DNA of 64,000 nt from Endosaccharibacter trunci. GTDB lineage: Bacteria > Pseudomonadota > Alphaproteobacteria > Acetobacterales > Acetobacteraceae. The DNA is taken from contig JAMSKV010000011.1 in the NCBI GenBank assembly GCA_024515975.1, positions 1-64,000 on the forward strand. Direction: 5' to 3'. Within the stretch, counting starts at the first letter, position 1. The number at the start of each line of letters is the position of its first letter. A program made the position numbers and the translations under genes. The notes below the pieces were generated by a model, which was not told the DNA's origin, made no database searches, and worked only from the letters and a program-made list of their open reading frames with translations. Of this stretch, positions 22,179 through 25,910 are shown in pieces.

Positions 22179-22290
22179 CGTTATCGGTCAGTATCCCACA
22201 CGGTGCGGTGCGCCGCCGGACAGATGCCACGCGCGTGGCCGAACCGCCAGGGCGCCGCCACAGACAAGAATTGTCCAAGGGTGGCCGTCG

Positions 22291-23433
22291 ATGATGCGCT
22301 CGCAAGAATGGCAGCAGGACCAGCGAAGCGCGGAAGACGCATCCGGAACGCATATCCCCTTCACGGCGCCGCTTCTCTCCGGCGTCTGCGCACGACGCAG
22401 CCGGAGCGCACCGGAATTCCTGATGCCGAATCCGTCCGGCCGCCGCGGCATCTATGTCGTGAGCTGGAAATCCGTCGCCGAATACGCGTCGCCGACGCTG
22501 CACGATCACGTTCTGTCCGGCCGGCTGGCGGAACTGGACGTTCTGGATCCGCCCTCCGTGCGCGCTGCTGCGACGGGGGTGGCATTGGAGGGCTATGCCG
22601 GGCCCGCGGTCGCCGAGGCGGCGGAACGTGGACGGGCACGAGAGGACGGCCAGCAGCTCCGGCTCTGGTCGCGCCTGATGATGGCGCTGATCGAGGACGC
22701 CTCTATGGGCGAGGAGGAACGGATCGGCTTTCTTCAGAGGCTTGGCCGGGCGGGCCCGCGCATGATGACCACCGGCCTGAACACGCTGGCGGACCGCCTG
22801 GGCTGGGAACCGGGCACTCTTTTCGAAGCGCTGGGCCGGCTCTCCACCGGCTACGCGCCGCTACTGCCAGGCGGCCGCATGACGGTGCTGCTGGTTCTGT
22901 TCGAGCGCATGCGCGGCGAGATCGCGCGCGAGATCAGCCTGCTTCGCGCCGAGCGCGGCACCGGTCATGCGTTGAACGCCAAGCTAGGCCGGCTGCTGCC
23001 GGACCTCGAGCACTGCCAGCACCATGGGCGGGCGCTGACCGAGAGAGCGCTCCGGCGCCTGGATCAGCCTCTGGGGCTGCTCCGCGACTGGCAGACCGAC
23101 CCCATTCTTTCACTCAGACCCGCAATCGCCGCCGAAAGCGCTCTGGACGGCTGGGACCACATTGCCTGCCTTTGGCAGGATTGCGCCACATCGACGGCGC
23201 GCGTCGCCGTTCTGCCGGAACTCGCTGCGCTGCTGCGCCTGCTCTCGGAACGAATCCGCGCGGAAGACGGGATTGCCCGTAACCCCGTCGAAACGCGCGA
23301 CGAAACCGCAATAGTGCCGGCCGCTCGAGACCATCCCGGCGAAACTACCCTCGCGGGATCGATCGTCGATCTGGTGGAGCGCAACGAACGGGTCCGGGCG
23401 CTGGAACTCGAGCTGGGAAGCCTCCATGCCTGA
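22291..23433 (+). CDS. unknown protein, paralogue of the product of the gene at 24726 (gene A of a three-gene operon)
   Basis: A 380-residue soluble protein with no family I can name. Near its N-terminus it carries EFLMPNPSGRRGIYVVSW (about residues 41-58), and it ends in VERNERVRALELELG; both blocks recur in the gene starting at 24726, and the stretch between them (TLHDHVLSGRLAE, then an Ala-rich helix) is also similar, so the two arose by duplication. There is no signal peptide or membrane segment. Charged helices dominate. The stop overlaps the next gene's start by 8 bp (ATGCCTGA), so the genes are translationally coupled. A second ATG directly follows the first. Confidence 0.75.
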   Translation: MMRSQEWQQDQRSAEDASGTHIPFTAPLLSGVCARRSRSAPEFLMPNPSGRRGIYVVSWKSVAEYASPTLHDHVLSGRLAELDVLDPPSVRAAATGVALEGYAGPAVAEAAERGRAREDGQQLRLWSRLMMALIEDASMGEEERIGFLQRLGRAGPRMMTTGLNTLADRLGWEPGTLFEALGRLSTGYAPLLPGGRMTVLLVLFERMRGEIAREISLLRAERGTGHALNAKLGRLLPDLEHCQHHGRALTERALRRLDQPLGLLRDWQTDPILSLRPAIAAESALDGWDHIACLWQDCATSTARVAVLPELAALLRLLSERIRAEDGIARNPVETRDETAIVPAARDHPGETTLAGSIVDLVERNERVRALELELGSLHA

Positions 23434-24729
23434 CCTTTCCATCGGCAGCCTATTACCGGATCGGCACGATAAGGCCGACCTGCTCGCGCTGGGCAGCGAG
23501 TTCCTGGCCGCGAGCGACGCCAAGCTGCGGAAAGTGACCCGGCTGATCGACAGCATGCCCGAGCGCGGCGCGGCGGACGCGCTTCTGCAACCGGTTCGTG
23601 AGCGGCTCGCCACATTGCGGCCGGTCAGGACCCTGAACCGCAACCGGCTTCTGTTCACGCCTTTCGACCGTCTGCTGGTTCCGCCTACCCGCTGGCAACC
23701 CGGAACGCCCACCCTGCCCCGGTCGATCGTGTCGCCAGTGATCGCCCTGCTCGACGGTGCCGGCGGTCCGGCTCTGCCCGCCCCCCCCTCTTCGACGCCG
23801 ACGACGCGGCCGAACTGTCCCGCCATGGCCGCCCGCTCTGGGCGGCGGCGGCCGATCTTCTGGAGCGCATCCGGATCCGGCAGAAATGGAACGATCCCGC
23901 CTGGCGGCAGGATCAGGGTCTTTCAGTCACCGATCCGGCAGTCACCGATCTGCCCGATCTGTTGCCGATGATGGTGCTCGTGTTCCGGTCCGCCCACGCC
24001 CTTCGCACCCTGCCGCCACCACGCGATCCGGCGCTCGACCGCGCCGTTCTGGTGCTGCTGGAAGCCGCTGCGGATAGCGGCCCACTCGGTTGGGGGACCA
24101 TGCTGGCCTTGCTGTTTGCCGAAGTCCCGACGGATCTTGTGGTCCGTCTCGCCGCGACGCTCGTCCGTGATCATCGCCAGGCTACGCTGCTGCGCGTGGG
24201 CATCGACCAGGCCGTGACGCGCATCCTTGGGCAACTGGAACAGGACGCGCATTTCCCCGACGAGGGTCCGCCCGCCATCGATCCGGCCATGCTGCTGCGC
24301 CGGCTCGAGGTGATGCGTCGCGCAGCCGAGCTGAACCAGATCGAGAACCGCCCCGGTTTCGAGCAGAAACGGTCCGCACGGCTGCAGGACGCCATCAGCA
24401 ACCGCAGCCGCGATCTCTTCCGCCAGAGTTTGCAGGACCGGTTCGAACAGCTCGAACGGACGATCAGGACCGGAACCGGCGATTCCGCGGCGATTCTGGC
24501 GATCGAGGCCGATGCGCGCCGCCTGCGCAGCTTCGCCCTCGGCGCCACCGCGCTGGATAGCGGGCGAGACTACCACGCCATGATCGACGAGGCGATCGCA
24601 CCGTTCATCGGCGCGCTGGATGACCGCACCGCCGTGACCCGGTTGCGGATGGTGGAGCTGCTCTGCGGCAGCGAGCGCGCCGCGCAGCTGGCAACAGCAC
24701 CAGGCCTCAAGCCGAGAAACGAACCATGA
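23426..24729 (+). pseudogene. unknown protein interrupted by a frameshift at a C8 run (gene B of the operon)
   Basis: Two reading frames make one coherent protein. From 23426 the frame reads MPDLSIGSLLPDRHDKADL on to NRLLFTPFDRLLVPP and GGPALPAPP, then shifts at eight C residues (23781-23788). In the -1 frame it continues as LFDADDAAELSRHGRPLWAA without stops to 24729, giving about 434 residues. A ninth C or a -1 slip would restore it. Without it the first frame ends at 23971. Flanking overlaps (8 bp before, 4 bp after) indicate the gene is normally whole. I cannot tell from sequence alone whether this is a sequencing error, a phase-variable tract, programmed slippage or a mutation. Confidence 0.7.
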
Positions 24730-25910
24730 TCGAGGCAATCGCCGATCTGCCCGCCCGAGGCGCCTCCATGTCGTGGCGGACCCGTATGCCAGGTTCGCAC
24801 CCCGTCGGCACGCAGCCGCGCAGTTCCGCTTTTCTGCTCCGTCGCGACGAGAATACCGCCGACGCAGGCGTGCAGCTGCCGCTCCTCACCCCCACTCTGG
24901 CCGGACTGCGTCTGCGCACGGGCAACAATGGAACCGAGTTCATTTTGCCCAATCCGTCCGGTGGCCGCGGTGTCTATGTCACCTCCTGGCCAGTCGTGAC
25001 CGGCTTCGCAACACCCTGCCTGCACGACACGATGTTGATCAGCCGCCTTTCGGGCGAGAAGCACATCGATCCACGGGTTGTGCGGGAGGCGGCACGCTCC
25101 GTCGCAAGCGCGGGGCATGCCGGCGTGATCGCCGCCGAAGCCGCCCGCGACGTGGAAGAGCAGCAGCGCAACGGGGCCCTGCGCCTGGGCGGCCAACTCC
25201 TGATGGTGATCGCGCGTCGCGCCGGCTTCATCCGGCCGGAAGACGCGGCACGCTGTCTCAGCCGGACCGGCTTCTTTCAGATGGCCGGACGGCTCGGCTG
25301 GCATGCTCCGGACCTGGCCGAAGCCCTGCGGAGCGTGTCTTCCCAGTTCGCCACCCTGGCCACGGGTGCCGGAGCAGACGGCTGCCTGCCCGAGGCCTGG
25401 GCCCCGTCCGGCACGCCGCGCGGCGGCGCCGGACGCTGGGGGCGCACCGCCAAACTGCTGCAGAGGCTCCGCAGTGCGCTGGCAGAGGAACAGAGCGCCG
25501 GCCACGGCGCCGACGGCGCCATGATCGGCCGGATCATCAATGCGGCCGATGCCAGCCTCGCCGCGCTCGACCGGTTGCTGCCGGAGGTGGACGCGGTTCT
25601 GCTCGATCCGATGCCGCTGCTGGAAGCCTGGCGGGACGGCGTACGGCAGGGACCGGACTGGCTGCACCGGCTGGAGGCGGTGCTGGATGGCTGGGCGCGC
25701 GTCTGCCTCCTGTGGTTCGATCCCGGCACGCCGGAACGACGGCAGGCGGTGATTGCGGAAATGGCGATCCTGACCCGCACAGTCGGCAATGGCGAAACCC
25801 GCCTTCAAGGTGAGATATCCAGCGACCCCGCCGGCCGGACAGCAATTCTGCTGGCGCGGAACGAACGGCTGCACGCCCGGGAATTACTGCTGGAGATCGG
25901 CGACGCTTGA
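24726..25910 (+). CDS. unknown protein, paralogue of the product of the gene at 22291 (gene C of the operon)
   Basis: A 394-residue soluble protein. It shares with the product of 22291 the motif EFILPNPSGGRGVYVTSW (about residues 62-79), the following TPCLHDTMLISRLSG, an Ala-rich helical part, and the C-terminal ARNERLHARELLLEIGDA. Its start overlaps the stop of the middle gene by 4 bp (ATGA). No catalytic motif, signal peptide or membrane segment is visible. The family appears to be of unknown function; the conserved N-P-S-G-x-R-G-[IV]-Y-V block is the most useful search handle. Confidence 0.78.
   Translation: MIEAIADLPARGASMSWRTRMPGSHPVGTQPRSSAFLLRRDENTADAGVQLPLLTPTLAGLRLRTGNNGTEFILPNPSGGRGVYVTSWPVVTGFATPCLHDTMLISRLSGEKHIDPRVVREAARSVASAGHAGVIAAEAARDVEEQQRNGALRLGGQLLMVIARRAGFIRPEDAARCLSRTGFFQMAGRLGWHAPDLAEALRSVSSQFATLATGAGADGCLPEAWAPSGTPRGGAGRWGRTAKLLQRLRSALAEEQSAGHGADGAMIGRIINAADASLAALDRLLPEVDAVLLDPMPLLEAWRDGVRQGPDWLHRLEAVLDGWARVCLLWFDPGTPERRQAVIAEMAILTRTVGNGETRLQGEISSDPAGRTAILLARNERLHARELLLEIGDA

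Follow-up and report, generated by a model that had tools for sequence, protein, structure and literature searches.

A conserved gene pair of Acetobacteraceae that probably encodes a soluble helical complex, with a duplicated subunit gene in Endosaccharibacter trunci

Three tightly spaced genes on the plus strand of a contig from Endosaccharibacter trunci (Acetobacteraceae; assembly GCA_024515975.1, contig JAMSKV010000011.1) raise the question of whether their products form one system, and of what kind. The stretch analyzed, hereafter called the window, comprises the first 64,000 nucleotides of this contig and belongs to a genome of 3.7 Mb in 43 contigs. Gene A (22291 to 23433; 380 amino acids) is followed by gene B, which is split by a change of reading frame into a 5' part (23426 to 23785; residues 1 to 120) and a 3' part (23791 to 24729; 312 open codons), and then by gene C (24726 to 25910; 394 amino acids). 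A first description made from the sequence alone (the sequence-only reading) had proposed an operon with two paralogues around an unrelated, interrupted gene, whose three products, none of them assignable to a known family, probably act together. The overlaps it reported, 8 bp between A and B and 4 bp between B and C, agree with the coordinates. We found that A and B make up the conserved unit, with A as its first subunit, and that C, a duplicate of A, was seen in no genus other than that of the window.

All loci together contained 185 open reading frames (ORFs) matching the A profile and 180 matching the B profile. After 12 A matches covering fewer than 250 profile columns were dropped, 173 remained. 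In 161 of these, B follows A on the same strand at a distance of no more than 1.5 kb, as a separate gene in 121 cases and within one open frame in 40. The loci behind the 161 pairs partly repeat one another; 130 pairs were left when near-copies and the window were set aside. Among 112 adjacent called pairs, the genes overlapped in 55, with an overlap of exactly 4 bp in 49, and the gap was no more than 60 bp in 96. The sequence-only reading had named homologues that are scattered and never neighbors as one result that would speak against it. This check was run, and A and B did not behave in that way; encoded together in 161 of 173 cases and fused in 40 of those 161, they behave as an obligate pair. 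In genomes with several pairs, the nearest relatives of A and B agreed for 13 of 17 separate pairs and, trivially, for 22 of 22 fused ones. The conserved order and the natural fusions make it very probable that the two products work jointly. This part of the earlier proposal therefore holds, but its extension to the trio does not, since A, B, and C occur together in only three of the five genomes available for the genus.

The fusions were found in Roseomonas-titled loci and a few others, where the A profile is followed by the B profile in a single open frame. Complete fused frames have 812 to 861 codons, with A as the first half and B as the second half. Four such frames stand in tandem in L134, L141, L144, L160, L161, L205, and L206; since L205 and L206 are, judged by length, the contigs of L144 and L141, these loci represent five distinct contigs with four-copy arrays. 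Three fused frames in tandem were present in L126. In a tree of 144 A-type domains, built with a quick search and SH-like approximate likelihood ratio test (SH-aLRT) support, the four tandem copies formed separate clades, each recurring across strains according to its position, so the tandem copies are old and have been kept. With 31 rows labeled as fused and 101 as separate, two changes were required on this tree to explain fusion. In "Rosetta stone" fusions, two subunits are separate proteins in most genomes and fused in some. A and B resemble them in being mostly separate and sometimes fused, and differ from them in that neither subunit has a known function; the fusion therefore argues for interaction only.

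The pair is concentrated in one lineage. Of 299 genomes sampled from the Acetobacteraceae, 122 matched the B profile, and of 385 from the class, 34 matched the A profile. In a sample of 299 genomes from the phylum, for which the number of genomes outside the class is not shown, A was found in three, including that of the window, all of them from the window's class. A scan of named genomes with A3 gave a relative in 98 of 115 stretches, from which 80 loci were kept, titled mostly Acetobacteraceae, Rhodospirillales, or Roseomonas. A first genome scan using the 3' piece of B as the query found no relative among 94 stretches. On plasmids, A relatives occurred in 16 records, all from Azospirillum, 11 of them typed as non-mobilizable and 5 as mobilizable. 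The A proteins in these records are about 33 to 37% identical to the A protein of locus L171 over at least 94% of the query. Pairs of hypothetical genes in Azospirillum (e.g., DM194_RS14550/RS14545, WP_111068294.1/WP_111068293.1) correspond to the A-B pair, with the two genes in the same order. Four regions were viewed; in all of them both genes are annotated as "hypothetical protein," and no duplicate of A lies behind B.

We then consider what kind of proteins these are. As the sequence-only reading had stated, none of the three genes could be assigned to a known family, with no convincing match in Pfam, NCBIfam, PHROGs, or PADLOC. Window A and C and both pieces of B gave no match up to an E value of 1 in NCBIfam, PHROGs (searched with the window proteins only), or PADLOC, and a single one in Pfam (FlhD; E = 0.18). 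For the relatives, Pfam returned isolated single-member matches, with best E values of 0.0014 among 28 A proteins and 0.0022 among 26 B proteins. In NCBIfam, TIGR04531 matched 3 of 54 A proteins (best E, 0.0027), NF052309 matched 1 of 54, and none of 55 B proteins had a match; in PADLOC, none of 54 A proteins had a match, and BrxD and ZacB each matched one of 55 B proteins (E, 0.004 to 0.008). Comparison of profiles with PDB sequences gave best E values of 0.001 (A1), 0.0033 (A2), 0.0019 (A4), and 0.021 (A5), and the proteins matched were, by name, mostly designed or repetitive helical proteins. The profile-profile probability between the A and B families was 0.8%, which rules out that A and B are distant paralogues of each other and bears out the claim that the middle gene encodes a different protein. 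No paper concerning the A-B pair turned up in the literature searches. Judged from these libraries and searches, what is new is the two families and their pairing, which appear to be undescribed; we claim no new biochemistry.

AlphaFold2 models were obtained for the pair of locus L091. The A model (54 aligned sequences) had a predicted local distance difference test score (pLDDT) of 92.0 and a predicted template modeling score (pTM) of 0.89, and the B model (55 aligned sequences) had a pLDDT of 94.3 and a pTM of 0.88. In the A model, short strands around a PNPSGGRG loop come first and helices follow; the stretch equivalent to the conserved motif described below consists of two short strands with the loop between them. 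The B model is made of helices throughout. Foldseek searches of the PDB gave nothing at E ≤ 0.001, the best values being 0.78 for A and 0.039 for B, and a search of viral structure models, run with A and not with B, gave a best E value of 0.23. Many of the weak fold matches of B were, by name, solenoids or designed helical repeats. The maximum 19-residue hydropathy mean exceeded 1.9 in only 1 of 106 A proteins and 10 of 108 B proteins, which argues that both are soluble. Both proteins carry a net charge of about zero, and the commonest invariant residues of B are R, W, and E.

Our preferred reading is that A and B are likely to form an obligate, soluble, helical complex, with C as an alternative A subunit. 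The physical complex is inferred from the pairing and the fusions, which support it well. The two proteins would be made from one operon, presumably with its promoter in the 112-bp gap (22179 to 22290) that, by the coordinates, separates A from its divergent left neighbor, and would assemble into one soluble, mostly helical complex inherited mostly vertically. A may bind B and present its conserved H-D and D-G-W motifs alongside a beta-hairpin loop (NPSGGRG) that is likewise conserved. For B, the role of a helical scaffold is probable, a suggestion that has its sole ground in the number of weak fold matches that are solenoids by name. The likeness to alpha-helical solenoid scaffolds (HEAT, ARM, and TPR) lies in the all-helical model of B and these weak matches; the difference is that the best match of B had an E value of 0.039 and that no repeat family was returned from Pfam. 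Solenoids dominate the weak matches of B to PDB structures, but none is significant.

Several points weigh against this reading. For 12 of the 173 A matches, B is missing downstream. Four of these are C copies, three lie beside B in other orders (two in L181 and one in L207), two are near contig ends (L068 and L155), and three have no B near (L139, L183, and L218). Likewise, 19 of the 180 B matches lack a partner, several of them being fragments or adjoining a dropped partial A. Four of the 17 separate copies disagree with the nearest relative of their partner. Covariation between A and B in the 130 pairs (effective number, 68) gave no short-range signal, and the A-B coupling of 0.309 fell within the range of the stricter shuffle (0.287 to 0.312) and above that of the looser one (0.237 to 0.254), in a test without power. 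The scaffold idea draws on fold matches below the threshold, the case for binding between A and B is an indirect one, and in the window itself B is broken as assembled.

Sequence comparison identifies A and C, at 22291 and 24726 on either side of another gene, as paralogues, in line with the original proposal: the two proteins are 30% identical over 391 aligned columns (E = 4e-37). The N-terminal motif matches exactly as it had been written, from residue 43 of A (FLMPNPSGRRGIYVVSW; residues 43 to 59, positions 22417 to 22467, plus strand) and from residue 72 of C (FILPNPSGGRGVYVTSW; residues 72 to 88, positions 24939 to 24989, plus strand), and in the alignments it is the most conserved part of the A family. 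PNPSGxRG occurs only twice in the six frames of the window, once in A and once in C. The C-terminal block proposed for both proteins is real (RNERVRALELELG / RNERLHARELLLEIG), but the regular expression given for it fits neither of them. Of 43 near-invariant columns of the A family, A of the window keeps 31 and C keeps 32, and the polar near-invariant residues H71, D72, D286, R364, and E366 (numbered as in window A) are kept in both.

In the A tree, C of the window grouped with C of L041, L042, and L044 in one clade with a support of 100. Together with the genus's A genes and one additional relative, this clade falls in a set of nine rows (support, 92). Five genomes of the genus were returned: three have A-B-C (the window, G056, and G132), one has A-B (G219), and one has B-C (G181). 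In G181, no A ORF was found between the left neighbor and B. C was thus present in four of the five genomes, and it was found nowhere else. The trio was rejected as a conserved unit, with C limited to one genus; the five-genome pattern shows instead that an A-type gene always stays beside B. In the genus of the window, A was duplicated behind B to give C, which would serve the same B as an alternative subunit of the A type, and in one sister genome C has replaced A altogether. A and C may therefore exchange on B, and C would then show subunit exchange in progress. A bolder version, which we hold only tentatively, is that the pair is a new two-component helical machine of the Rhodospirillales lineage, in which a scaffold B takes interchangeable A-type subunits, as the duplication in the window's genus and the four differently specialized tandem fusions of the Roseomonas type might indicate.

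Next, the interruption of B was examined. The claim that the middle gene is interrupted at a run of eight C residues was borne out, as the B profile is split over two frames around this run (23781 to 23788, plus strand), with profile positions 8 to 109 matching at 23465 to 23770 and positions 123 to 416 at 23797 to 24699. The run is the only one of C or G with a length of at least 8 in the window, compared with a mean of 14.6 in base-shuffled copies. Eight such sites exist in the whole genome, which otherwise seems to avoid them; according to a crude gene finder, two of the other seven lie inside called ORFs, which are unbroken, and five lie between called genes. In four relatives of the same genus, B is one open frame, and this place lacks any run of six or more C or G residues; one of the four carries a run of six G residues elsewhere in B. 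Phase variation, as in a contingency gene, is therefore disfavored, since the tract has no counterpart at that place in these relatives. The break may be a homopolymer assembly error, a recent mutation, or slippage. If it is real, full-length B would be made rarely or never in this genome.

A less favored explanation, doubtful but the best surviving rival, is that the operon of the window is decaying, with B truly frame-broken, A drifting, and constraint left on C only. It would account for the frame change and for the end branch of window A, the longest of its genus (0.90, compared with 0.25 to 0.40); in addition, the nearest relative by C, that of G181 (support, 94), comes from the genome that has lost A. 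Against decay, B beyond its single break is open over 312 codons, and its third positions look like those of coding sequence (third-position G+C of 0.80, compared with 0.78 in A and 0.80 in C), A and C keep 31 and 32 near-invariant columns as given above, and a homopolymer assembly error accounts for the break equally well.

Other long runs and other apparently broken copies were also seen. The longest runs in the genome are 13 G residues (G000:C39:73550-73562) and 10 C residues (G000:C9:23247-23256), both between called genes. In L156 (9776 to 12453), A and B are spread over four open frames, and in L065 (7646 to 8863; genome G010), B is in two pieces with an in-frame stop.

The pair could instead be a two-subunit enzyme of a new fold rather than a complex built on a scaffold, which we regard as unlikely. 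Catalysis or substrate binding would then fall to the H-D, R-N-E, and D-G-W residues in A and to the conserved arginine and glutamate residues in B, and the polar near-invariant residues kept in A and C, the prevalence of R, W, and E among the invariant residues of B, and the metabolic genes among many neighbors are all consistent with such a role. However, no enzyme family or fold was matched, and the neighboring metabolic genes vary between lineages.

A role of A-B in DNA repair or the response to DNA damage was suggested by the neighborhood, and it is a good deal less probable than an enzyme. Of 140 tree rows, 22 have a gene for an HhH-GPD base-excision glycosylase no more than six genes away, and 9 have an MmcB-type repair gene at such a distance; one representative of each was confirmed with Pfam (PF00730, E = 1.8e-9, and PF06319, E = 7.9e-45, respectively). 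L171 and L177 also have Nth-like and exonuclease III-like neighbors, named by eye only. However, each of these neighbors is tied to the conserved gene order of one lineage, and the net charge of about zero does not favor DNA binding. Control by the SOS response was tested with the pattern GTTCN7GTTC, which we take to be the LexA-type box. With at most one mismatch, the box was present upstream of 16% of 131 A genes and 13% of 2,065 other genes, and the exact pattern was not observed in front of any A gene. As the box was not enriched, the SOS/DNA repair lead was dropped.

That A-B is a mobile system of the defense or toxin-antitoxin type is very improbable: its patchy presence (122 of 299 genomes), tandem copies, and Azospirillum plasmid copies would fit, but PADLOC recognized neither the window proteins nor the 54 A proteins and only one B protein each for BrxD and ZacB, A was absent from viral contigs (0 of 51 candidate stretches) and from phage records in scans in which B was not searched, the surrounding gene order is conserved across divergent genera, and fusion of a toxin with its antitoxin in one protein is not expected. 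For A, the same scans led us to reject a mobile or phage origin.

A flagellar link, suggested by MotA/MotB-like genes (named by eye) near 8 of 140 tree rows, was also considered. Of the 299 genomes, 122 were B-positive and 177 B-negative; flagellin was present in 115 and 124 of them, respectively (odds ratio, 7.0), the positives being matched by eye from printed lists. As a control, PhaC_N was counted in the same way in the same genomes and was present in 110 of 122 and 105 of 177, respectively (odds ratio, 6.3). Since the control association was about as strong, the flagellin association is unspecific and follows genome size or descent, and the link was rejected.

Two families without recognized relatives, kept together across many environmental bacteria and fused in some of them, point to a conserved part of the cell that, judged from the libraries and literature searches used here, seems to be unnamed. 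The natural fusions, such as L134:9959-12445 on the plus strand, offer a ready construct for structural work, and non-pathogenic carriers such as Azospirillum or Rhodopila make knockouts practical. Even if the function proves dull, a large set of genes in many genomes no longer counts as "hypothetical" once the pair is described.

The neighbors of the window operon, named by eye, are kept in seven loci, including L053 (putative Lichenicoccus) and L062 (genome G001). Among the 140 tree rows, the recurring neighbors were, again by eye, a histidine kinase (28 rows), an enoyl-CoA hydratase-like gene (25 rows), and a MotB-like gene (8 rows). These patterns fit with vertical descent in a few chromosomal places. 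In nine loci (L150, L151, L158, L164, and others), the MmcB-type DNA repair gene lies directly upstream of A, and a divergent gene for an Rrf2-type regulator is present in eight of these nine. A-B pairs were also found in L140, titled Nitrosovibrio, and L143, titled Acidobacteria; the tree places both among Acetobacteraceae-type sequences, and they are thus probably mis-binned. The gene order is altered in genome G642, where B lies upstream of A (L181:8818-12778 and L207:8555-11178) and a second A is divergent in L181. Genome G086 (putative Lichenicoccus) has three A-B pairs (L053, L211, and L212), one of them in the same gene neighborhood as that of the window and another next to genes that, by eye, look urease-like.

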